IMG/VR virus record: IMGVR_UViG_3300010148_000156
Span: 1-21,240 of that record
Direction: 5' to 3' (one strand)
Source of the DNA: a virus
DNA: 21,240 nt
Shown here piece after piece: positions 1,422 through 20,803 of this stretch; positions within the stretch are counted from its first letter, which is position 1, and the number at the start of each line of letters is the position of its first letter. A program made the position numbers and the translations under genes. A model generated the notes under the pieces. The model had not been told where the DNA came from. It ran no database searches and was given only the letters and a program-made list of their open reading frames with translations.

Positions 1422-3815
1422 TTATTCAAATCTTGTTTTAAAGTTTTCGTTTCTTGATTGATATTGTGCGTCATTTAATCCATACGGAGAAGCTACTATT
1501 ACACCAGGTTTATTTTCTACTACTACTTTAGTAACTCCTTGATTACCTGATCCTACTTCTCCTCCTTCTTGTGCTCTTCCTCCTCCACTAACTATTCCTC
1601 CTCCTTTATTCATAGCATATAAGTTACCTAATCCTACATTTTGTACTCCTTTTCGGCTCATAATAAATTCACCTTGTTCTGCTTCAATAAGAGTGCCTCC
1701 TTGAGAATGTCTTTTCCCTCCTATAAATCCCCCTTTTTCTGCTTTTCTTTTTGATAAACCATATACTAAACTAGCCATTCCAATAATAGCAGCTATTGCT
1801 ACTGGTATACCTAAACCAAATGGTATTTTAGCAAGTGAACCAAATATTTTAGCAGATGCTAAAGCTACATTCATACCTAACCTAGAACCTAATCCTCTTA
1901 CGGAACTTTTTGAAGCTTTATTTGAAGCTATATCAAATCCTAAACCTATAGCTTTAGCTACATTAGTAGCTACTGTTATTCCTTTAATAAGCATTGCACG
2001 TGCTTTAATAGTTAAGAAAATTGCTGCTACACTTCCTAATAAGGATTCCATAAAGGTTAATTCTTTTCTATTTTCTCCAAAAAGAGAAAGTATTCCTGAT
2101 AATCCTGTCATCATAATGTTAATAGGTTCTAAAGCTAAAGTTAATATGTTTAGAAATTCACCTAAAGGACCACCTACTAAATCAACAAATATTCCTTTCA
2201 TTTTTGCTACAGCATCATTAAAACTTTCTTGGACATTTCTTTGTTCTAATCTGTCTGCTAATTCGTCTTTACCTGCTGCTCTTAATTCTTCAACAGTTTT
2301 GCCTTGAGCTTCTTGTTTCATTAACATTTCAGATAATTCATCTGACGACATTCCAAATGATTTAGCTAAAGCATTTTGTTGTAAAACATTCATTTTACTA
2401 AATTCAGTAAAATTACCCGCTTGGCTTGCTACTTCTTCAGCTAATGCTGCATAGTCACCTTGTAATGCTAATGCTCTTGCTCTTTCTAAATTAAGTTGTT
2501 TACCTGTTAGTAATTCTGCTTCTAACTCTGCTTCTATAGACTGTTCAAAATTAAGTAATGCTGATCCTGCTTTTGCTACTTGTTCTAATTCTAATCCAAA
2601 TTCTTTAGCTTTCATTACAGCTTTTGCTATTGCCTCTGGATTAGCACCTAATTGTGCTTTAATCTGACCGGTAGTGTTACCTACTTTTTCTAATATTTCT
2701 TGATGACTAAATGATAAACCTGTTTGTTCTTTTTGTTTTTCTACAATTACCCCTATATCTTTTCTTGTCTCTTCTAAAGTTTTACCCGTTATTAAAGAAG
2801 ATTGTGCCATACCCCCAATGGCTTTTTCAGACATGCCAAATAATTCTGACATTTTTGCAGCTTCTATAGACATTTCTGAAGAAAAACCAGCTGCAAATCC
2901 AATTTGACTTTGTAAAATTCCTAAACCTTTTTGAATTCTTTCTGTATTAACAAATAAATCATTACTTGAGGCTGCTGCTATAGTCATTTCCTGTCTAAAG
3001 GCCATGGCTTCTCCACGAGATAATGCCATTCCTTTTTCAAGATTAGTAAGTTGTTTATCAAAAGTAAGACCTGCTTTAAGAGCTGCTATAGCTATTGTTA
3101 GTGGGTCTAATGCTCCTTTTATAACATCTTGGACGGCAGATTTTAAACCAACCATCATAGTTTGCATTTTACTTGCTCCCTCAGCTGCTGCCTTATTCAT
3201 CTTTTTTAAGGCTTCTTTAGAATCTATAAATTGACCTACTATAGGGATTTTACCTATTCCTTCTATAAGTTTACCTGAGGCTCCTACAGTGTCTTTAATT
3301 TTTCTAGCTATATTTTCTTGTTTATCTAATTCTAAAGCATTTTCTTTATTAGCAGTTACTTGTTCTTCATATAATTTTACAGCATCTGCTATTTCACTAT
3401 TAATACCTTGATGTTTTTCAACTAACATTTCAGTTAATCCAAAAGATGTTCCTAAATTAGCTGATATATCTTTTTGAGATACTCCTGCTTTTGATAGAAG
3501 TTGTTCTATTTCTCTATCTAAGCCTATTTGAGACTGTTTGTTTTTAGCTATGTCTTTTTGGATGTCATTTAAAGATAATTCTCCTTCTAATAATTTTTCA
3601 GCATTATCTACTAAGTTTTGAGATACACTTGCTGTGTCTTTAAATGCTTTTTTAAAGGATGCTGCTTCTATAGAATTCATTCCTAAAGATTTAGCTAAAT
3701 CTGCTGCCTCTGATGCTATATCTCTAGAAACAAATAAAACTTCTTGTAATTGTTCTCTTAAATCTCCAGCTTTATCAGCTGCTCCTTCTATTTCTTTTTC
3801 TGGATTGTCTGCCAT
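1422..3815 (-). CDS. Tail tape measure protein
   Basis: A 797-residue protein that would lie inside the tail tube and set tail length; at about 1.5 angstrom per residue (helical) it predicts a tail of roughly 120 nm. T4 gp29, the equivalent, is about 590 residues. The first 220 or so residues are charged, helical and coiled-coil-like. Hydrophobic stretches lie near residues 545-579, 593-603 and 664-686, as expected for a protein that may contact the host membrane during DNA entry. Near 694-728 is a motif common at tape measure C-termini: GGFIGG, HSQGGT, IEAEQGEFIMSRKGVQNVG. A Gly-rich segment follows. It sits after the gp26-like overlapping pair, the usual slot for this gene. A terminator and a promoter core lie immediately upstream, so it may be an independent transcription unit. 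No Shine-Dalgarno sequence precedes the ATG. Confidence 0.85.
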   Translation of the reverse strand: MADNPEKEIEGAADKAGDLREQLQEVLFVSRDIASEAADLAKSLGMNSIEAASFKKAFKDTASVSQNLVDNAEKLLEGELSLNDIQKDIAKNKQSQIGLDREIEQLLSKAGVSQKDISANLGTSFGLTEMLVEKHQGINSEIADAVKLYEEQVTANKENALELDKQENIARKIKDTVGASGKLIEGIGKIPIVGQFIDSKEALKKMNKAAAEGASKMQTMMVGLKSAVQDVIKGALDPLTIAIAALKAGLTFDKQLTNLEKGMALSRGEAMAFRQEMTIAAASSNDLFVNTERIQKGLGILQSQIGFAAGFSSEMSIEAAKMSELFGMSEKAIGGMAQSSLITGKTLEETRKDIGVIVEKQKEQTGLSFSHQEILEKVGNTTGQIKAQLGANPEAIAKAVMKAKEFGLELEQVAKAGSALLNFEQSIEAELEAELLTGKQLNLERARALALQGDYAALAEEVASQAGNFTEFSKMNVLQQNALAKSFGMSSDELSEMLMKQEAQGKTVEELRAAGKDELADRLEQRNVQESFNDAVAKMKGIFVDLVGGPLGEFLNILTLALEPINIMMTGLSGILSLFGENRKELTFMESLLGSVAAIFLTIKARAMLIKGITVATNVAKAIGLGFDIASNKASKSSVRGLGSRLGMNVALASAKIFGSLAKIPFGLGIPVAIAAIIGMASLVYGLSKRKAEKGGFIGGKRHSQGGTLIEAEQGEFIMSRKGVQNVGLGNLYAMNKGGGIVSGGGRAQEGGEVGSGNQGVTKVVVENKPGVIVASPYGLNDAQYQSRNENFKTRFE

Positions 3816-3843: not shown

Positions 3844-3870
3844 AAAAAAGAAAAGGTGCTTGCGCACCTT
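3844..3870 (-). terminator. Rho-independent terminator after the gp26-like pair
   Basis: On the minus strand a perfect 7-bp stem AAGGTGC / GCACCTT with loop GCAA (3853-3870) is followed by TTCTTTTTTC. It starts three bases after the stop of the small ORF 3873-4142. The plus strand lacks a following T-tract, so it should act only on leftward transcripts. Confidence 0.85.
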
Positions 3871-3872
3871 AT

Positions 3873-4142
3873 CTATTTATTAAAATAAAACATTGAAGGA
3901 TCTACATTAGGTCTTGATATGTCTCCATCACCTATGTTAGAACGTCCTTGTATTTTTTCTAATTCTTCATTTTGTTTTTTATTAAATTCGTTGATTCGGT
4001 CTATATGATACCTCCTCATCCAAACTGGCATGTTATATACTTCTGAGTGTATGAAACCACCGCCGCCATGGTACACTAGATCGTGGATCTCAGTATATAA
4101 TAATTGTCTATAATTCGGCGTCAGGCCAAAAAAACGAGGCAT
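3873..4142 (-). CDS. Small ORF overlapping the gp26-like gene; candidate T-like half of a tail assembly chaperone
   Basis: An 89-residue ORF starting MPRFFGLTPNYRQLLYTEIH. It contains a VYHGGGGFIHSEVYNMPVWM stretch followed by RRYHIDRINEF and a charged helical segment (NKKQNEELEKIQG). This motif set is familiar from small proteins next to gp26 in T4-like phages, but I cannot assign a named family. The ATG lies inside the end of the gp26-like gene, 35 bases of overlap, in a different frame, with no Shine-Dalgarno sequence. It could be made by re-initiation, or as the end of a frameshift fusion of about 336 residues, or both. Its place between tail tube and tape measure is where lambda has gpT and P2 has E'. 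The role is inferred from context. A strong terminator follows. Confidence 0.75.
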   Translation of the reverse strand: MPRFFGLTPNYRQLLYTEIHDLVYHGGGGFIHSEVYNMPVWMRRYHIDRINEFNKKQNEELEKIQGRSNIGDGDISRPNVDPSMFYFNK

Positions 4143-4157
4143 TGATAGGAATAGTTA
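4108..4157 (-). other. Candidate programmed frameshift window
   Basis: In the small ORF's frame, the last upstream stop is the TAA at 4155-4157; the gp26-like frame closes with the TAG at 4108-4110. Within that window lies a run of seven T (minus strand, 4128-4134), read as TCG TTT TTT TGG in the gp26-like frame and CGT TTT TTT GGC in the other. Slippage by +1 or -2 on the T-run would join the two proteins. Lambda G-GT uses -1, so the direction here would be unusual. Confidence 0.4.
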
Positions 4158-4884
4158 CATTTTCTTGAATATGCCCATCTTCAAATTCAATATTAAACTC
4201 TAAATCAATGTCTGGTTGTATTGATCTAACATATTCTCTAAGAGCTCTTGCGTCTCTTGCTAATAAGTTATTATCAACAAATTCTCTGATTGTTTTCTTT
4301 TCATAATCTCCATTTACAGACTGTATTAAGTATTTTAATCTAGTAGTTAATTCTGGAGAAGCCTTTTTATTAATCTTTTTTAAACCTTTTAACTCATTAT
4401 TAATCTTTTTTTCATCTTCTTGAGTTAATAATTTAAAAGTTAAATTAATTTTAGTTGTAGGTAAATTAAATTCAAATTCATTTTTACCTTTTATCATTAT
4501 ACTTTCATCAATATATCTATCTTCTGCCTTTGTTAAATCAACAGATACTACTTCCATTTCACCTGTTTTAGGATGAGGTAACTTAAATGAATATTCTGCT
4601 CCGTAACCTAAAATTCTAGATGCTACTAATACAGCATTTTTATCTCCTATTAGTAAATCATTATAATTAATATCAGTTATAATTAGAGATTGTAGTAATT
4701 TATCAATTACTGTGCCATTTTCTATGTAGTTTTGGTTTGTAAGAATATCTTCTTCACGAGCTGTCATATACTTCATTTCTATGACTCCACTTCTTAGTGG
4801 GGATCCTTCAGGATAAAGTAAACCTTTTGAAGGTAATGTTACTTCTTCGGAAGGAAATTGGGGTTTTTGTTGTGTTTGTTCCAT
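4108..4884 (-). CDS. 26: T4 gp26-like baseplate hub / tail assembly protein (T4_baseplate family)
   Basis: A 258-residue protein. The N-terminal half carries the hallmark block of the T4 gp26 family: LPSKGLLYPEGSPLRSG, then MKYMTAREEDILTNQNYIENG, then LLQSLIITDIN (about residues 18-73). The second half is charged and helical and ends with DLEFNIEFEDGHIQENVTIP before FFWPDAEL. T4 gp26 (208 residues) is needed to assemble the baseplate hub. The position just downstream of the tube gene and upstream of the tape measure is that of tail assembly chaperones such as lambda gpG, so the protein may help load the tape measure. Its last 35 bases overlap the next ORF, with a T7 run in the overlap. A promoter core lies 24-42 bases upstream of the ATG, preceded by a terminator. 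Confidence 0.8.
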   Translation of the reverse strand: MEQTQQKPQFPSEEVTLPSKGLLYPEGSPLRSGVIEMKYMTAREEDILTNQNYIENGTVIDKLLQSLIITDINYNDLLIGDKNAVLVASRILGYGAEYSFKLPHPKTGEMEVVSVDLTKAEDRYIDESIMIKGKNEFEFNLPTTKINLTFKLLTQEDEKKINNELKGLKKINKKASPELTTRLKYLIQSVNGDYEKKTIREFVDNNLLARDARALREYVRSIQPDIDLEFNIEFEDGHIQENVTIPINASFFWPDAEL

Positions 4885-4927: not shown

Positions 4928-4960
4928 TAAGAAAAAAGAAAGCGCCAAAAAGGCGCTTTT
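4928..4960 (-). terminator. Rho-independent terminator after the tail tube gene
   Basis: Stem AAAGCGCC / GGCGCTTT (4939-4946 and 4952-4959) with a 5-base loop. On the minus strand it is followed by CTTTTTTCTT. A T-rich run also follows it on the plus strand (TTTTTCTTT), so it could act in both directions. Confidence 0.85.
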
Positions 4961-4981: not shown

Positions 4982-5467
4982 TTAGTAATTTAAGATGGCA
5001 TAATCCATTCTAATTGTAATATTGATGTTCATTGGTGTGTCTGAAGTCCAATCAGCATCTCCAAAGTTAGCTGCTTTACAGTAAGCACCTTTACAGATCC
5101 ATTCTTCAACTACATCACCTACAGGACCCAATGCGTTAAATCTAATGTCTTTTTTATAGAAATCAGAATAACCATCTCTACCTGTAACTGACTCATGTGA
5201 CAAACGAACCCACTCCATTACTGCTTGTGCACCTGATGGTGTTACTGGATCATAAAGATCAGCTGTAATGTCTTGCCAATCTGCTTTTCCTTTAATTTTT
5301 CTTTTCACATTAATGTGATCAAGAGTAACATCGTTAAATGAGATGTTTGGTCTTCCTACTTTTTTAACTAGGAATGCTGGAATTCCGTCGATGTACATTA
5401 TAAACCTATTTTGTAATTTAGGTTCAAATGCTGTGAACATCATTTCGTTTGTGTTTAATATCGCCAT
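4982..5467 (-). CDS. 19: Tail tube protein (T4 gp19-like)
   Basis: A 161-residue protein, close to T4 gp19 (163 residues). It polymerises as the inner tube through which DNA passes, surrounded by the sheath. The family pattern is visible from start to end: an N-terminal FEPKLQNRFIMYIDGIPAFLVKKVGRP, a central RKIKGKADWQDITADLYDPV, the helix AQAVMEWVRLSHESVTGRDG, and a C-terminal beta strand NINITIRMDYAILNY. It follows the sheath gene by 51 bases, the standard order. A promoter core lies in that gap, and a strong terminator follows, so it may be made from a short monocistronic transcript in addition to read-through from sheath. This would suit its high copy number. Two cysteines (WICKGAYCK) are present; no metal-binding role is claimed. 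Confidence 0.93.
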   Translation of the reverse strand: MAILNTNEMMFTAFEPKLQNRFIMYIDGIPAFLVKKVGRPNISFNDVTLDHINVKRKIKGKADWQDITADLYDPVTPSGAQAVMEWVRLSHESVTGRDGYSDFYKKDIRFNALGPVGDVVEEWICKGAYCKAANFGDADWTSDTPMNINITIRMDYAILNY

Positions 5468-11671: not shown

Positions 11672-14600
11672 TTATTTATTTAACTTGTTTACTAATTCTT
11701 TTAATTCGTCTATTTGTTTTTGTTGTTCTTTTATACCTTCAATTAATAAAGGAACTAATTTTTCATATTTTACTGCTTTATATCCATTTTTTCTTGTTGT
11801 TACTATTTCTGGTAAAACTTCTTCTATTTCTTGTGCTATAATTCCAACATCATGTCCCTTATAAATATCTTGATTTTCATTCCAATCAAACTCATACCCA
11901 CCTATTTTTAATATTTTTTTAAGTGGAGAACCAATTGGTACAATATTATCTTTTAAACGTTTGTCAGAACTCATAAACGCTATAATATCTCCGTCTGCTT
12001 GTATAACGCCTGCTTCACTTGTAGAAGAACCATCAGGAGTTCCAGCTAGTACTTGGAAGTTTCCTGTGTAAGCACCTTTCATAGCGTAACGAATACTTCT
12101 TCCATTTACACCAGTGTCTGATGTTGTTATTGCTATACCATTACTAGCTGTAATATTGAAGTCTGCTTTTTGTGTACCAAGAGCTGAATCATCTACTTTA
12201 CTACTACCATTGTGTTGACCCTGAAAAGTTGCTCCAAAGTTAAATTCAACTTCATCAACAATATTCAATCCTGTAAGGTGATCATTGTCAACATCTTCAA
12301 GTTTTACTGTGTTTGTTTTTGTACCAACACCACCGTCCATTATAACAAATCTATCAGTGGCAAGTAAAGAACTATTATTCTGTTGCGCAACTAAAGCAAA
12401 ATTAGTTGAAATATTAATTATATTTGATGAAGGGTTTGATGTTACTATACCCTCACTTCCTGAAAGAACAAAAGAAGCTACCCCAGCATTGTCTATTACA
12501 TTATTACCATCATCTGTAGTAAACGTAACTGATGTAATATCACCACTGTTGTTTGTAAAAGGTAAATCTGATATAAAACCTTTCTTAACAGTATTATCAC
12601 TTGCATCGTGATAAGCTATAGTATCACCTGTTGAAATAGCAGTTCCTTCAAGGTTAGTGGCACCATCAATAAAGTTATCTGTTCCTATATAATCTATTTG
12701 TACACTTACTGTACCACTTGTTCCACCCCCAGTTATACCTGTACCTGCAGTTACCCCCAGTATATCACCAGTAGGACCAGTAGCAACAGCAGTAACATGT
12801 CCTCGGGCATCTACTGTTATATTGTCTATTTTTTGTCCATTTGATGCATTACCATAAGATCCGGCGGCTAATACTCCAGCATCATGGTTTATTGTTACAG
12901 TGTCAGTAGCTCCAACTGTAGTTGATATGTTTGTTCCACCAGCAATAGTTAATGTATTACCAGCTGTTATAGTTTGGTCTGTACCAGCATCTGCAGTTAC
13001 ATCAAAGTCACCTCCACCCCCACCACCACCTATAAATGCTGTAGAACTAGTTATATGAAGTTTACCAGTAGAGTCATCATATGTAACTAATTTTTGTAGT
13101 CCCGTTTGAGTACTTAAACCTGCAAATAAAGCTCCACTTGCACTTATTTCTCCTAATACTTCTAGTTCTTTTCCTGGGAATGGTGTTCCTATACCAAATG
13201 CAGCACCTGCACCAAATATATAAGAAGGTCCAGGTCCGGCAGTAAATTCTGCTTGTATAGATCCACCTGCTCTAAGAATTAGTCTACCCCTATCATCATT
13301 AGGAGGTCCTCCCACTCTTGCAAGCGCTGCTATATTATTACCTGATGAGTCTTGTAAAGCTATAAAACCACCTAAAGATGCATCTTTAGCTATATGTTTT
13401 AATCCAACAATTTCCGCACTAGAACTTATGTCTCCTTCTACATGGAGTTGTGCTGCTGGAGATGTTGTATTTATACCAACATTAGTAGTAGAATTTTCAA
13501 GATATAAAGTATCACCACCACCACCAGCAACATCTAAAAATCTTAATCCCCCCGTTGTACCATTTGTTAAAACTGACCATTGATTTGTCCCTGATCTTGC
13601 AAACTGAAGTATAGGATCATCAGTACTAACACCACCACTATCTAAACGAACTACAACATCTCCATTACCCCCACCACTAGGTCCAATGTGAAGTTCAATA
13701 GGAGAAGGGGCTAATTTATTAATTCCTACTGTACCGCTTCCTGACACAATAAAAATAGCGTCCGAAGATAAGTCTTGATTTTGACCTATTATAAATGCAG
13801 TATCACTCTGCGCATTAATACCATCAATACCCGCAAAGAAAGTACCCTTATTGTTTGTATATTGAATATTTGAATTATTAGATGTGGTTCTATGAATGTG
13901 AATAGGAGAAGGATTTGTAGTATGTACAAATAATTGTTCATCACTACCTGATAATGTAAGTGAACCTGTTATAGCTGAATCTCCATTTCTTTGGCCTGTT
14001 GCTTTAAAAGTATCGAAACTACTTGCAAAACCAACACTTGAAGTATGGTAAAAACGTCCTGTACTGGGGTCATAAGTAGCTATATCAAAATTTCCTTCTG
14101 AAGCAGAAGCAAATAAAAGTCCACTTGCTGTTATATTACCTGAGGCTGTTACAGCACCTACAAATTCAGTTTGACCAGTAATTGTATGTATATCAAACTG
14201 AGCTGAATTTCCAAGTATAACACTATTAGTATGAGTTAAGAGTGTTCCATTTACTTTAAAAAGATCAAATCCAGGTCCAGCAATCTTAAATTCATCTCCA
14301 AGCACAGTTCCACTTGCACTTATATTACTTGCACTTATATTACCTGAGGCTGTGAGGTTACCATCAATAAGCCCATCACCTGTTCGTACACCTGTATTTT
14401 TAAAGGTATCTAATCCCTCACTTAGTCCTGCGCTTGAAGTTACATAAAATCTACCTGTAGTTGAATCATGAACTACTACATCTGAAAAATTTCCTTCTGA
14501 AGCAGAAGCGAATAAAAGTCCACTTGCACTTATATTACCTGAAGCTGTTACGTGTTGGTCTGTAGCTGCTCCTAATTCTATTGTTTTTCCTCTTAATCTA

Positions 14601-17600
14601 AGATTTTGGTTTGTTTGACCAAATACTATTTTTGTAGAAGCAGCAAGATAATTTATAGCTATTTTGCCTTCTATTTGATAGTCAAGGGCTTTAATTGTAC
14701 TACTTGCACTTATATTATTAAATTGTACGTCATCTGTTATTTCTAAACCAGAAGCTGTAGCTGATAATTGTCCACCTGCTAGATTAAGATCAATGCCTGT
14801 TTGTCCCGTTCCATCATCTATTGATGTTACTAAACCACCACCTCCAGCAGCTCCATAACTTCCTGTACGGAAGAATTTACCTGTTGATTCATCATAAACT
14901 AGTACTTTAAAAGATGAATCATTATTGTCAGAAACATCAGCAAATAAATTTCCACTTGCACTTACAATACCTGAGGCTGTTATTTCTCCATCAATAAATA
15001 TTTTAGAAGTATTTGGGTTATCATTTGATAATTCAATCGTATTAGAATCATCTGTTATCTTAATTCTAGTACCATCAGTATCAAAATCTCCAATTTCTAA
15101 TGTTGTTTCTGTAGAACCCGAAACAAATCTTCTATTGTTTATAAAATATCCATCATTGGTTATTCCTGACTGAATAACATTAATTTTTGGTGTTATAATT
15201 TCTCCACTTGCACTTATATTTCCTGATGAAGTTATATGGCTACCAAAGAATGATTCTCCTGTTACTGATAAATTTCCACTTGCACTTACATTACCTGAGG
15301 CTGTTAAATTTCCATCTATAAAACCGTCTCCTGTTCTTACACCTGTTTGTTTAAATGTACTTAATCCTGTACTTAAACCTGCACTTGAAGTTGTATAAAA
15401 TCTACCATCAGTACTATCATAAACTACAAGATCTGAGAAATTTCCTTCTGAGGCTGAAGCGAATAAAAGTCCACTTGCTGTTATATTACCTGAAGATGTT
15501 ATATGATTTCCTGCTATTAAACTTCCACTAGCTTCTATATATCCTGTAGCTACTACATTAGCTGCTGAGTTTGCTCCTGCGCCTCCTCCTTTTACTTCTA
15601 TATGACCACCTAAAAGTATATCTCCTGTGTCTCCATCTACAAAGATATGATTAGTTCTATGGTCGGTTGTTATAGATAAACTATTTTTAGTAGCTCCTCC
15701 ACCCGTTAAATCAACAACAGCTTCAACATTTTTCTGTGTTATAGAGATTGATTCAGGTCCTGTTAAGTCTTTTATTATTAGGGCAGGGTTTATATCGTTA
15801 CTTAAAGTTAAAGAACCGGTTATACCAGAAGAACCACTTCTTTGTCCCGTTGCTTTAAATGTATTAGATGCATTATTACCTATAGTATCTACTATAGATT
15901 GACTTAAATTAGTTATATCAATAGCTATTGATGCACTTGTTTGACCTACAGAACCTGAAATATCTGAGGCTATTTGAAGGGATGAAGAAAGTAATCCTGG
16001 ATTTTCAAAAGTATGAAATTCTCCTGTTATTAAGTCTTGTACAACTATATGAGTTAAAGCATTAGTTGTAGATGAACTTGCAAATAATAAACCACTTGCA
16101 CTTATATTACCAGAAGCTGATATATGACCTATAGTACCTGCAACAGGGTTTCCTGCTGATATACTACCAGCTGTTATTATACTATTAAAAGCAACATCAT
16201 CCGTTTGTTCTAATCCATTAACTACTGCTGATAAATTATTACTTAATAGTTGTAAGGTTATACCTGTTTGTCCTGTAGTATTTGAAACTGTTTGTAACAA
16301 ACCACCACCACTACCACCAGCTCCATAACTTCCTGTGTGGAATACTTTTCCTGTAGATTCATCATAAACTAAAGTTTTTAAATTTGAATCATCATTTAAA
16401 GATGAACTAAAAAATAATTCTCCACTTCCACTTATATTTCCTGAAGCCGTTACATGAGTTGTATTAACATTAGATATTGTCCCTCCTACTGTTATATTAT
16501 TATCTATTGTTATGTTTTCGGCAAACATGTCTCCTCCACTTGCACTTATATCACCTGAAGCTGTTAAATGTACTTCTTCACCTGCTTTACCAATTAAAAG
16601 TAAAGATCCTGTTATTACTGAGTCTCCTTCTCTATGACCCGTTCCTTTAAAAGTATTTAATCCTGAACTTAATCCAAAACTTGAAGTTGTATAAAATCTA
16701 CCATCAGTACTATCATAAACTACAACATCTGAAAAATTCCCTTCTGAAGCTGAAGCATGAAGTGCTACACTTGCACTTACTTTTGTACCTGTTATTGAAA
16801 GTTTTCTAGAACCCGATGTAGCACCTCCTACTCTAAAAGTTATTGCTGAGTTTTCAGGATTACCTGAATGGGTTCCTGTTGATAAAAAAGCTTCTACATT
16901 ACTAAAATCAGGAGAAATTTTACTTACCCCCATACTTAAACCTAAATTTTGAGCTTTTATTACTACAGCAGGTACATCATTATCTACTACATTTTTTATA
17001 CCAAAAGGTACTCCTTTACCTCCAAAAGGATTTGCTTGGTTAAAGTTATCTCCACCAATTGTTAAACTTCCTGATTTTTGTTCTCCCGTTAAATTTATTA
17101 AAGGAATAGCTTCACCTGATATTACTCGTGATATATTTAAACCTGGAAATGAACCTTGTTGTTCTGATTCTACAAAATTATATTCTCTGTTTGATGTTTT
17201 TAAAGAAATAAGATCAGTTTCAGTAGTACTGCTTTCAACATTTACATGGTGAAATGACCCTGTAAATCCTATAATATCACCACTTGCGGTTACATCACCT
17301 GATGCCGTAAGATTAGAAGGTATACCACTTAATTCGGATAAGTTTAAATCACCTTGTATTTCGGAGTCTCCTTCTCTAAATCCTGTGTTTTTAAAAGTTT
17401 GTACTAAAGACTGATTTATATTTAAAGCGCCAAAGGATGCTGTACCTGAAGCTGATATATCTCCATTTGCAAATACTGTAAATCGAGGATTATAGTCTGC
17501 TGTTTTTGATTGAAATAATATATTTTCTTTAAAACCTTTATTACTACCATATGTGTGACCCTCCCAGTTATCTATAATACTCATACTTGTATCACTATGA

Positions 17601-20600
17601 ACATTTTTAACAGTGTGTATTTCATAGTAATTAGGATTAACCCTATGTATCGCATTACTTTGACTAAAGTCTTGATCAGCTGCAGGAGTAAAAAATATTT
17701 GATCATGTGATCCTAGCCCTGTTGATATTTTTCTTATTGTATCTACTGTATGATAAGAACCAGTACTTGTATTACTACCACTAGTAATTAAGATTATATC
17801 TCCCGTTTTAACCTGTTTGTGTGTTCCACTAAAACCTGATCCTCCTATTACATTGAATGAACTTGTAATTATTGATGCTGTAGAACTACCAATAGAACCA
17901 GAATAAAGTCCTTCTAAAGTTACTATAGTACCAAAACCTTGTACTTTTATAGCATCCCCTCTACTCATTGAAGTAAAGTGTGTGCTTGAACCCGTTAATT
18001 GATTTGAACCAGATGCTGTTTGTATAAGATGATTTGATAAACTCATCGATATATTTACAGGATCAGTAGTTCTAAAATTGTCTGCTTGGACTGATTGAGT
18101 AACGTGTAAAGATGAAGAAGGAGACATTATTCCTATACCTACTTCCCCTATCCTTCTAAAATCAGAAATACCTTTTACTGTTAAAGCTGCTGTTCCAAGT
18201 TCGCCTGTTGGTTCTCCCCCAAAGTATTGCTTTCCGTCTCCTCCTATTACTAATTGTATATTATTTGCCCCCTTAAAATGTCCTACTGCGGATCCTGATA
18301 TATTAAAAGGATAAGGCATATTTTCAAAGTGTGCCTCTTCATGAACTCCCCTACTTTCTATATAAAGAGAAGCAGAATGTTGTTTTTTAAAAAGAGTATA
18401 TCGAGAAGAAGCTCTATCAGAAACTAATCCTACTTCACTTTTAAATTCTCCTGGTTCTGTAAAATCTATATATGGTCTTTCTTTTCTTCTAGAGGCAGCT
18501 CCAACATGGTTTAAACTTATTCTAGCATCACTTCCTGATTTTGCTCTTATATCTAATAAAGCTATTGGAGCATCCTCATTACCAAAGTTACCAATTCCTA
18601 CTCTACCTGATGCTTCAATAGCAAATAAACCCATTTTATCATTATAGAAATTATAAAGTAAATTACTATCATTTCCTGGGTAACCAGTTATCCATCTTTT
18701 TCCTTGTCCAAAAATATTTGCAAACCCTGGTGGTTGACCCCCGAAAGATTGACTTAAACCAGCATTAGATTGAGAATAGGCAAATTCATTATCATCGGCA
18801 ACATGAAATTGCATTCCTGAATATCTTGCTACACCAGGTACATTATTAATACCCTCAAGTGGAGTAGTTAAACACACTTCTCCTTCTATAGTTAAAGGAA
18901 TTTGCGTAGATCCAAGAACAGTAGCAGCACTTTCATGTGATCCTACTTCTTCTCTTCCTAAAATTCTAGGAGCAAAACTAGCTCCCACATAAGGACTTCC
19001 TTTTTGTATAAATAAACCAGATCCTGATAATATACTAAAAGTTTCTAATGTTCCCATAGGAGGGCCTACAAATAAACCATTAAATTTATTATTAAAATCC
19101 TCTCCTCTTGTATTTATATGAAGTTTTGCAACGGAACCTGTTATTGCCCCTACGGTAGGATCTAAAACTACAACAGGCACATCACTATTTTTACATTCAT
19201 TAAAATTAGGAGTTATACCTAATCCAGATGAGTTTATACCATTTAATATATGTAAAGCTTCAGGAGTGTGTCTAAGTGTTCCAGCTATTGAACCTGAAGC
19301 ATGAATAAAAATAACATTTTCACCACCTCCATGTTCTTTTATAAAAAATCCTGTAGTTCCTGCATCTACTAATCCTATAGATACTTTTGCTTTAGCTCCC
19401 CCCGTAGATGTTGTTGATAAAGGACCTTCAAAACCTATATCTGCTATATCATCTGTAAGTCCTGTTGAAGCTGATATATGAATATCATGAGCTAATAGTG
19501 TTGTATTTCCTCCTAAAGATGAGTCTTTAAAATTTCCTATCCCTAATTGTCTATCTATTAATACTATATTTGAAGACGATATATAAGTAGGTGTCCCATC
19601 GTACCATAAACTTCCTGTGTCTGCATCTATTGTTACAGTTATATCATTACCCGCATTAGTAACATTTACTGCGTCTCCTACAAAATCAAAACTTTCTGCT
19701 GATGAAACTAATTGTGATCCTTCATTTAATACAGCAATGTCTGTTCCAGAACTACCTCCTCCTCCTCCTAAAGCATTTGCAGACGTAAAGTGTACATTTT
19801 GGTTTTTTATAGTTAAAACTGTAAAATTACTAGTTGTGGGGTGTTCTGTAGCTCCTCTTATTAATAAATGTTGAAAAGAACCTGTATTGCCCGCTTTTAT
19901 ATTGTTTGATGCTGTTACATTTGTACTTGAATCAAGATTAGACACTTCTAAGTTTCCTGTAATAGCTGAGTCTCCAGCTCTTTGTCCTGTTAATTTAAAT
20001 GTGGTTCCTGAAAAACTTCCTGTTTTATAAACCCTACCATCATTATCATCTACAACTAACATACTAGTACCTGTAGATTGACTAACTGCTGGAACTCCAT
20101 TTGTACCTGGAATATAAAGATCAAAGGGGTCATTTACTGTAAGTCTGTCAGGGGTTATAGTTGTTATACTATTACCGTCTGAAAATAGATCTATAGTGTC
20201 TATTGTGAAAGTTAATTTTGTATCTATGTTACCCCTATGAATTAAAGAATCATGAATGTAAGCATTGGTTCCATATAAATCTATATCAGCTATTACATCT
20301 TCAAAAGAATGTACTGTTCCACTAGCAGTAATATGACCTGGATGACCTGCAGAACCATTAGCATTTGGGATAGAACCTGTTGTAAATATATTTCCAAATA
20401 CCTGAAAAGCTGGATTAACTTCAGCATCTAATAAATTACAAGAAGAAGGTAAGTGTTCTCCTACTCTTACGGATCCTGAAAACGTTGTTAAGGTTTCAGC
20501 TCCTACATGAAATTCATTTTTACATCCACAAGTAGCTGAAGCCAATATAAATCTAAACTGGTCTGTACCAGCCATGATTTTTTCGCCTGAGCTATCATTT

Positions 20601-20803
20601 ATAAGGATTTGTTGGTTTGTAGTTTGACCGGGGAATACTACTAAATCGAAGTCATCTGGTGTACCTCTAATTTGAAATAAATCTCTTCCTCTTTTATAAA
20701 ATATAGTACCTGTACTTACATTTAAGACTATATCTTTAGAAGAAAAAGAAGCCGCTACTGGATCTCTAAACTTAATTAATAATTTTCCTCCTTGTTTAGC
20801 CAT
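11672..20803 (-). CDS. Giant modular fibre-like protein with C-terminal Peptidase_S74 chaperone
   Basis: A 3043-residue protein taking 43% of the window. The N-terminal part (about 1-260) is unique and probably anchors it to the tail; it has a CGCKNEF motif near residue 90. A long shaft follows, made of beta-rich modules: repeated ITASGNISASG strings, seven FK-x-TG-x-R-GD-type motifs (near residues 269, 1136, 1384, 1648, 1816, 2134, 2265), and YDSTDGRFYTTSS or YDESTGK links. VGIN/VGIG-x-x-SP-LHV-G modules lie near 2400-2560. A glycine run (near 2592-2598) leads into a different section with ITVDARGHVTAVATG. The last 98 residues are Peptidase_S74, starting SDKRLKDNI; Ser2946 and Lys2951 are the likely catalytic pair for self-cleavage. 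In other fibres this domain drives trimer folding and is then released. Host recognition is the probable role. Confidence 0.88.
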   Translation of the reverse strand: MAKQGGKLLIKFRDPVAASFSSKDIVLNVSTGTIFYKRGRDLFQIRGTPDDFDLVVFPGQTTNQQILINDSSGEKIMAGTDQFRFILASATCGCKNEFHVGAETLTTFSGSVRVGEHLPSSCNLLDAEVNPAFQVFGNIFTTGSIPNANGSAGHPGHITASGTVHSFEDVIADIDLYGTNAYIHDSLIHRGNIDTKLTFTIDTIDLFSDGNSITTITPDRLTVNDPFDLYIPGTNGVPAVSQSTGTSMLVVDDNDGRVYKTGSFSGTTFKLTGQRAGDSAITGNLEVSNLDSSTNVTASNNIKAGNTGSFQHLLIRGATEHPTTSNFTVLTIKNQNVHFTSANALGGGGGSSGTDIAVLNEGSQLVSSAESFDFVGDAVNVTNAGNDITVTIDADTGSLWYDGTPTYISSSNIVLIDRQLGIGNFKDSSLGGNTTLLAHDIHISASTGLTDDIADIGFEGPLSTTSTGGAKAKVSIGLVDAGTTGFFIKEHGGGENVIFIHASGSIAGTLRHTPEALHILNGINSSGLGITPNFNECKNSDVPVVVLDPTVGAITGSVAKLHINTRGEDFNNKFNGLFVGPPMGTLETFSILSGSGLFIQKGSPYVGASFAPRILGREEVGSHESAATVLGSTQIPLTIEGEVCLTTPLEGINNVPGVARYSGMQFHVADDNEFAYSQSNAGLSQSFGGQPPGFANIFGQGKRWITGYPGNDSNLLYNFYNDKMGLFAIEASGRVGIGNFGNEDAPIALLDIRAKSGSDARISLNHVGAASRRKERPYIDFTEPGEFKSEVGLVSDRASSRYTLFKKQHSASLYIESRGVHEEAHFENMPYPFNISGSAVGHFKGANNIQLVIGGDGKQYFGGEPTGELGTAALTVKGISDFRRIGEVGIGIMSPSSSLHVTQSVQADNFRTTDPVNISMSLSNHLIQTASGSNQLTGSSTHFTSMSRGDAIKVQGFGTIVTLEGLYSGSIGSSTASIITSSFNVIGGSGFSGTHKQVKTGDIILITSGSNTSTGSYHTVDTIRKISTGLGSHDQIFFTPAADQDFSQSNAIHRVNPNYYEIHTVKNVHSDTSMSIIDNWEGHTYGSNKGFKENILFQSKTADYNPRFTVFANGDISASGTASFGALNINQSLVQTFKNTGFREGDSEIQGDLNLSELSGIPSNLTASGDVTASGDIIGFTGSFHHVNVESSTTETDLISLKTSNREYNFVESEQQGSFPGLNISRVISGEAIPLINLTGEQKSGSLTIGGDNFNQANPFGGKGVPFGIKNVVDNDVPAVVIKAQNLGLSMGVSKISPDFSNVEAFLSTGTHSGNPENSAITFRVGGATSGSRKLSITGTKVSASVALHASASEGNFSDVVVYDSTDGRFYTTSSFGLSSGLNTFKGTGHREGDSVITGSLLLIGKAGEEVHLTASGDISASGGDMFAENITIDNNITVGGTISNVNTTHVTASGNISGSGELFFSSSLNDDSNLKTLVYDESTGKVFHTGSYGAGGSGGGLLQTVSNTTGQTGITLQLLSNNLSAVVNGLEQTDDVAFNSIITAGSISAGNPVAGTIGHISASGNISASGLLFASSSTTNALTHIVVQDLITGEFHTFENPGLLSSSLQIASDISGSVGQTSASIAIDITNLSQSIVDTIGNNASNTFKATGQRSGSSGITGSLTLSNDINPALIIKDLTGPESISITQKNVEAVVDLTGGGATKNSLSITTDHRTNHIFVDGDTGDILLGGHIEVKGGGAGANSAANVVATGYIEASGSLIAGNHITSSGNITASGLLFASASEGNFSDLVVYDSTDGRFYTTSSAGLSTGLSTFKQTGVRTGDGFIDGNLTASGNVSASGNLSVTGESFFGSHITSSGNISASGEIITPKINVIQSGITNDGYFINNRRFVSGSTETTLEIGDFDTDGTRIKITDDSNTIELSNDNPNTSKIFIDGEITASGIVSASGNLFADVSDNNDSSFKVLVYDESTGKFFRTGSYGAAGGGGLVTSIDDGTGQTGIDLNLAGGQLSATASGLEITDDVQFNNISASSTIKALDYQIEGKIAINYLAASTKIVFGQTNQNLRLRGKTIELGAATDQHVTASGNISASGLLFASASEGNFSDVVVHDSTTGRFYVTSSAGLSEGLDTFKNTGVRTGDGLIDGNLTASGNISASNISASGTVLGDEFKIAGPGFDLFKVNGTLLTHTNSVILGNSAQFDIHTITGQTEFVGAVTASGNITASGLLFASASEGNFDIATYDPSTGRFYHTSSVGFASSFDTFKATGQRNGDSAITGSLTLSGSDEQLFVHTTNPSPIHIHRTTSNNSNIQYTNNKGTFFAGIDGINAQSDTAFIIGQNQDLSSDAIFIVSGSGTVGINKLAPSPIELHIGPSGGGNGDVVVRLDSGGVSTDDPILQFARSGTNQWSVLTNGTTGGLRFLDVAGGGGDTLYLENSTTNVGINTTSPAAQLHVEGDISSSAEIVGLKHIAKDASLGGFIALQDSSGNNIAALARVGGPPNDDRGRLILRAGGSIQAEFTAGPGPSYIFGAGAAFGIGTPFPGKELEVLGEISASGALFAGLSTQTGLQKLVTYDDSTGKLHITSSTAFIGGGGGGGDFDVTADAGTDQTITAGNTLTIAGGTNISTTVGATDTVTINHDAGVLAAGSYGNASNGQKIDNITVDARGHVTAVATGPTGDILGVTAGTGITGGGTSGTVSVQIDYIGTDNFIDGATNLEGTAISTGDTIAYHDASDNTVKKGFISDLPFTNNSGDITSVTFTTDDGNNVIDNAGVASFVLSGSEGIVTSNPSSNIINISTNFALVAQQNNSSLLATDRFVIMDGGVGTKTNTVKLEDVDNDHLTGLNIVDEVEFNFGATFQGQHNGSSKVDDSALGTQKADFNITASNGIAITTSDTGVNGRSIRYAMKGAYTGNFQVLAGTPDGSSTSEAGVIQADGDIIAFMSSDKRLKDNIVPIGSPLKKILKIGGYEFDWNENQDIYKGHDVGIIAQEIEEVLPEIVTTRKNGYKAVKYEKLVPLLIEGIKEQQKQIDELKELVNKLNK
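14722..14918 (-). repeat. Module copy A: VYDESTGK to TDDVQFN block
   Basis: Codes for a block running from VLVYDESTGKFFRTGSYGA through a Gly-rich linker and TGQTGIDLNL to GLEITDDVQFN. It is paired with the copy at about 16190-16388. Order and spacing of all elements are conserved. Confidence 0.75.
16190..16388 (-). repeat. Module copy B: VYDESTGK to TDDVAFN block
   Basis: Codes for TLVYDESTGKVFHTGSYGA, a Gly-rich linker, TGQTGITLQL and GLEQTDDVAFN. Counterpart of 14722-14918, about 1.47 kb away, which indicates duplication of a larger unit containing several smaller repeats. Confidence 0.75.

Follow-up and report, generated by a model that had tools for sequence, protein, structure and literature searches.

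A predicted, conserved +1 frameshift site joining a T4 gp26-like protein to a DUF6760-like part in the tail-chaperone slot of contractile-tailed phages

The DNA analysed here, referred to below as the window, is a stretch of 21,240 nucleotides from IMG/VR virus record IMGVR_UViG_3300010148_000156, and its source is a marine, contractile-tailed phage; among named phages, Flavobacterium phage immuto is its nearest relative. Between the tail tube and tape measure genes lie a gp26-like ORF (4884..4108, minus strand, 258 amino acids) and a small ORF (4142..3873, minus strand, 89 amino acids), and hundreds of distant relatives share this arrangement. The features of the locus, in 5' to 3' order on the coding strand, are as follows.

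4982..5467, minus strand: tail tube protein, upstream neighbour (PHROG 4542 tail tube, E 2.5e-27)
4939..4959, minus strand: terminator-like hairpin with T tail between the tail tube gene and the gp26-like gene (z -3.7)
4108..4884, minus strand: gp26-like ORF, the G part or TAC-N, 258 amino acids, stop TAG at 4108-4110 (PF12322, PHROG 150)
4155..4157, minus strand: TAA closing the T frame, seven codons 5' of the slip site (sequence)
4140..4142, minus strand: ATG of the 89-residue ORF, called mechanically and unlikely to be a functional start (ATG missing in 138 of 177 relatives)
4128..4134, minus strand: predicted slip site, TTT (4134-4132) TTT (4131-4129) followed by TGG (4128-4126) (sequence and conservation)
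4125..4128, minus strand: predicted +1 slip, with T4128 skipped and reading resumed at GGC (4127-4125) (sequence)
3873..4127, minus strand: predicted T part after the shift, GLTPNYRQ...YFNK, 84 residues, stop at 3873-3875 (PF20546, conservation, model)
3853..3870, minus strand: terminator-like hairpin with T tail between T and the tape measure gene (z -6.3)
1422..3815, minus strand: probable tape measure protein, 797 amino acids, downstream neighbour (position and length)

The tail tube gene was assigned by its PHROG match and the tape measure gene by its position; neither Pfam nor PHROG gave a significant match for the latter candidate, and in Flavobacterium phage immuto the gene in this slot is annotated as a tail tape measure protein. 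Terminator-like hairpins with T tails bound the G-T unit on both sides, four being found against 0.6 expected, and a terminator is annotated at the corresponding position in Bacillus phage SP-15, ahead of the gp26-like gene. Elsewhere in the window, a 3043-residue ORF on the minus strand (11672-20803) contains many repeated segments (FKATGQRxGDSxITGSL..., SASGNISASGLLFASASEG...) and looks to be a giant tail fibre, with C-terminal residues (SDKRLKDNI...) that presumably resemble a chaperone-type intramolecular domain.

The first-pass annotation had proposed a programmed frameshift between the two ORFs, and all of its coordinates proved correct: the ORFs overlap by 35 nucleotides (4108-4142), both frames are open together only across 4111-4154, with the TAA at 4155-4157 closing the T frame upstream, and a run of seven T lies on the coding strand at 4128-4134. 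As it had also claimed, TTT TTT is read across this run in both frames, namely as TCG TTT TTT TGG in the gp26 frame and as CGT TTT TTT GGC in the frame of the small ORF, which is the gp26 frame +1. A fusion of about 336 residues had been expected from a shift of +1 or -2; the computed +1 product has 336 residues, with the junction ...PINASFF-GLTPNYRQ..., and variant sites in relatives favour +1. The heptamer of -1 frameshifting (X XXY YYZ) is absent from this phage's site, T being in the +1 frame and G preceding TTT TTT.

Sequence profiles bear out the label of the first protein. G matches Pfam PF12322 (T4_baseplate) over residues 30-253 with 29.9 bits, above the gathering cut-off of 24.5, and matches PHROG 150 'baseplate hub' at E 1e-14. 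Because T4 gp26 and T4 gp51 are both strong PF12322 matches and both members of the G family, the label 'gp26-like' is correct. G and T were modelled as separate chains by AlphaFold. The model of G has a pLDDT of 90.7, and its top match among 704 PDB chains is 2ob9, the HK97 tail assembly chaperone; this match is weak (Z 4.8, 81 residues, rmsd 4.1), and the next unrelated chain follows at Z 3.4.

The T part scores 25.8 bits against Pfam PF20546 (DUF6760) over residues 12-63 (E 1.1e-5), where the gathering cut-off is 27. Judged by this match, T is a relative of DUF6760 that falls just under the cut-off, and not a filed member; a literature search returned no paper on DUF6760. The model of T consists of three helices, with a core pLDDT above 90, and gave no convincing match in the PDB, while comparison with viral models gave weak matches only, such as gp51 of phage ZZ1 at E 4. 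Among 41-50 aligned relatives, T is conserved onward from the FFGL junction. The C-terminus of T4 gp51 was considered as a T homologue and rejected: the alignment of its approximately 48 extra C-terminal residues with T is weak, though in register (hhalign P 0.003, probability 10%), and the HMM score for T4 itself is not above that of shuffled controls. A weak tblastn match of the T domain of locus L171 (NC_073954.1, 2814-3071, E 0.003, 30% identity) lies within the replicase gene of an ssRNA phage and is probably due to chance.

Relatives were collected twice, once with T as the query and once with G alone, the second search making no reliance on T. The resulting sets comprise 144 distinct loci found by G alone, 177 loci under 95% identity and 61 families under 60% identity; three G matches (L016, L050, L106) were dropped as tblastn artefacts near terminators. 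The T module lies in the +1 frame in 143 of the 144 G-only loci and in the -1 frame in one (L212). A script that takes the longest frame gives 141 versus 3, as it scores L222 and L232 as -1 though their T module, FFGLRAEDKPAIHDQIF..., lies in +1. No relatives were found on plasmids.

The T frame of these relatives contains no ATG before the site in 113 of the 144 G-only loci, and no ATG, GTG or TTG up to the site in 58/144 of them and in 24 of the 61 families. A T-frame stop is present within eight codons 5' of the site in 82 of the 144 G-only loci, and 38% of the 61 families under 60% identity have it exactly four codons 5' of the site. T-frame residues 5' of the Phe pair are not conserved, and those 3' of it are (FFGL 85-97%). 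This pattern, with start codons often missing, nearby stops and conservation only past the Phe pair, is that expected of a coding region entered solely by frameshift. Furthermore, since the frame relation, the Phe codons and the T run recur in 143 of the 144 G-only loci, the arrangement is more than chance. The check that the first-pass annotation had suggested in homologous gp26-like loci thus gave a positive answer, the overlap, the frame relation and the T run being kept while flanking third-codon positions drift. Its assignment of the gp26-like protein as the G part and the 89-residue ORF as the T part is likewise supported by the +1 loci, the conservation of the slip codons and the missing start codons.

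Conservation at the slip site extends to silent positions. Third-codon positions carry 0-0.2 bit of information in upstream G codons versus 1.7-1.8 bits at the two slip codons. Among the 177 loci, all 162 with Phe at the second slip codon use TTT there, whereas TTC makes up 21% of the Phe codons elsewhere in these genes (p 3e-17), and the 61 families under 60% identity give a similar result (TTT in 56/56 Phe cases versus 29% TTC elsewhere in the gene). Variant sites include TTT CTT TGG, TTC TTT TGG, TTC TTT CGT, TTT TTT CAC, TTT CTA TGG and TTT TTT AGT, among others. Cognate re-pairing of tRNA-Phe one base forward (UUU/UUY) is possible at 177 of 177 sites, and re-pairing two bases back is impossible at 23 of them (TTC TTT, TTT CTT and TTT CTA types); therefore, +1 is favoured over -2. 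A simple +1 model leaves one feature unexplained: the base preceding the site is G or C in 161/177 loci, against 24% G/C (76% A/T) at third positions generally. Before the +1 site, A is avoided as well as T, and avoidance of -1 slippage would account for the missing T but not for the missing A.

Other readings of the locus have to be weighed against these observations. A -2 shift, known in phage Mu (PMC5009743), would reach the same frame while adding one residue (FFF-GL, with the junction ...ASFFFGLTPNYR versus ...ASFFGLTPNYR for +1), and the seven-T run permits it here and in 154 of the 177 relatives. We nevertheless regard it as unlikely, because the other 23 relatives (TTC TTT Y, TTT CTT/CTA) cannot re-pair two bases back and all can re-pair one forward, and because codon 2 is never TTC, which is required by +1 and not by -2. 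RNA polymerase slippage on the T run, in place of ribosome slippage, would yield an identical fusion if one U of the seven were dropped. However, broken runs (TTTCTTT, TTCTTTC, TTCTTTT) retain both the frame relation and the T module, such short T runs are not known to provoke polymerase slippage, and this explanation appears highly improbable.

The locus could also encode two separate proteins, the small ORF being started at the ATG at 4140-4142 by coupling or re-initiation. That ATG is present in this phage, and both LR756511 and the eCIS locus L285 have an ATG for T at the stop of G. The first-pass annotation had pointed out that the small ORF's ATG has no Shine-Dalgarno sequence; the absence is real but worthless as evidence, since none of ten checked genes of the window is preceded by such a sequence, A/T-rich leaders being present instead, as in Bacteroidota phages, and it is therefore no argument against an own start in this phage. 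What makes separate synthesis very unlikely is the record of the relatives, in which 138/177 have no ATG and 63/177 have no ATG, GTG or TTG ahead of the conserved FFGL junction, while the T frame before the site is free to vary and the slip codons are kept at silent positions. Finally, no point was found in favour of a chance overlap or an assembly error, and its probability is close to nil; the same arrangement recurs throughout the set of 177 loci and also in cultured phages, and this conservation refutes it.

The reading that we prefer, and consider very probable on comparative grounds, is that the locus is one tail-assembly-chaperone gene, read as a short G and as a +1-frameshifted G-T fusion. 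The majority of ribosomes would stop at the TAG and release the 258-residue short form (G, TAC-N). A minority would slip +1 at the Phe codons UUU UUU U(GG). With a slow codon, in most cases UGG, in the A site, the P-site tRNA-Phe would let go of UUU and pair with the UUY codon that overlaps it, and +1-frame translation past the slip would yield the 336-residue G-T fusion (TAC-NC). If the two parts act as in lambda G/GT, the tape measure protein would be coated by G, and T would deliver tail tube subunits to it. We infer the slippage itself, its rate or short-to-long ratio, and UGG as the pause from the sequences, and the chaperone role from gene order, family and the lambda analogy. As for stimulators, downstream RNA folding gave no clear signal (set mean z -0.78 versus -0.45 in a control region; z -0.66 and -1.4 at this phage's own site), and a search upstream for a Shine-Dalgarno-like element revealed no fixed element across relatives, only scattered cases.

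Several relatives appear to reach the two forms by other means. The jumbo phages PA5oct (site at about 3654; L186) and Atu_ph07 (about 3274; L185) and a third locus (L267) carry T in the -1 frame. Their site is at the same Phe-Phe pair and is preceded by the base T, so that it reads T_TTT_TTC, a classic -1 heptamer. By the evidence of these sequences, the direction of frameshifting is switched between +1 and -1 within one family. The one G-only locus with T in the -1 frame, L212, is near +1 relatives, yet has TTC TTC at the site (about 3648), and its A_AAT_TTC, a possible -1 heptamer, probably qualifies as one.

In contractile-injection loci from bacterial genomes of two phyla (L183, L184, L287), G and DUF6760 form one in-frame ORF, and these ORFs support the frameshift fusion being a real protein. 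In the distant megaphage LR756511, T starts with an ATG of its own within a TAATG overlap; this is a separate T gene, the kind of counterexample that the first-pass annotation had named, but it does not weaken the case for this phage's group. In three further injection-system loci (L182, L284, L285), a short G of 118-123 amino acids is directly followed by DUF6760 in the -1 frame; the DUF6760 frame of L182 contains no ATG, GTG or TTG (GGGGGAATCATAG), and L285 has TGATG. Synthesis of T in these three loci may depend on a -1 slip on the G run or on translational coupling. T in some injection-system loci may start at the G stop. The own ATG of T in LR756511 and these possible starts indicate that the G-T fusion is not universal.

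The same +1 arrangement is found in Bacillus phage SP-15, Listeria phage LIS04, Streptococcus phage GXN1, Rhodothermus phage RM378, Flavobacterium phage immuto and Microcystis phage Mel-JY01, and in the Streptomyces phages LuckySocke, BRock and GiJojo. The Streptomyces phages have Leu, not Phe, before the slip codon (ILF; TTT then C), so that in these phages only the second UUU is shared with the other sites. In the GenBank tables of these named phages, T is absent or is called a small hypothetical protein, and in the Streptomyces phages the annotated small CDS begins inside the T domain; none of the GenBank stretches checked marks a joined (frameshifted) CDS. The prediction is therefore of a missing protein in published genomes, including SP-15, LIS04, immuto, LuckySocke and others, where a T frame with no start codon is misannotated or unannotated.

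Overall, we lean towards a widespread, unannotated +1 class in the gp26-type chaperones of contractile phages (Bacteroidota, Bacillota, Streptomyces, cyanobacteria and others), with UUU UUY kept at the Phe-Phe pair over great distances, and towards four routes to short and long forms: +1 frameshifting, -1 frameshifting at the same codons, duplication, as in T4 gp26/gp51, and, in injection systems, in-frame fusion. Few +1 shifts have a slip site that is both defined and conserved. Which codons work can be read from the natural variants, so that the mechanism is open to direct test, and the +1/-1 switch at these two codons offers a natural experiment on the determinants of frameshift direction. 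A function is also suggested for DUF6760-like proteins.

Among known systems, P2 E/E' is a chaperone pair in the same slot, with a short form and a minor form extended by -1 frameshifting. Lambda G/GT likewise lies between tail tube and tape measure and comprises a short form and a minor -1 frameshifted form (PMC5009743). The present locus resembles both in its slot and in having a short form and a predicted frameshift-extended form, but it differs in that the shift is +1 and that the proteins are a PF12322 member (T4 gp26 family) and a DUF6760-like part. Frameshifted tail chaperones are already known, with -1, -2 and +1 examples (PMC5009743; PMC10885494; PMC12846349). The literature searched, with Vladimirov et al. 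(2022) outside its reach, yielded no mention of a +1 site in the T4-gp26 family or of how widely it occurs; the conserved +1 site in this family appears to be new, and frameshifted chaperones, including +1, are known.

T4 gp26/gp51 were proposed as the tail-assembly chaperones of T4-like phages by Vladimirov et al. (2022), as cited in PMC10885494 and PMC12846349. The link that the first-pass annotation drew from T4-type gp26 to the general tail-chaperone system thus gains comparative evidence, which ties the gp26/gp51 family to that system, but going by these citations its novelty is partial. Some T4-like phages have separate short and long genes in place of frameshifting (PMC10885494, citing Vladimirov et al., 2022); here, in contrast, there is one gene with a frameshift, PF12322 being common to both. 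The +1 direction is shared with the chaperone of myovirus HSTV-2, which has a +1 shift, and with those of actinobacteriophages, which have forward shifts (PMC5009743; PMC10885494), a likeness by description and not by sequence. The chaperones of Vandenendeviridae/Andersonviridae have a -1 frameshift with a conserved GTTTTT motif (PMC12846349). Also compared by description, they are similar in the poly-T slip near the TAC-N end, the contractile phages and the T part annotated as 'hypothetical', and they differ in shifting -1 and in belonging to other phage families. Finally, T matches the DUF6760 of contractile injection systems, where a gp26-like protein adjoins or is fused to DUF6760; the two are fused or separate there, and here they are joined by the predicted +1 frameshift.
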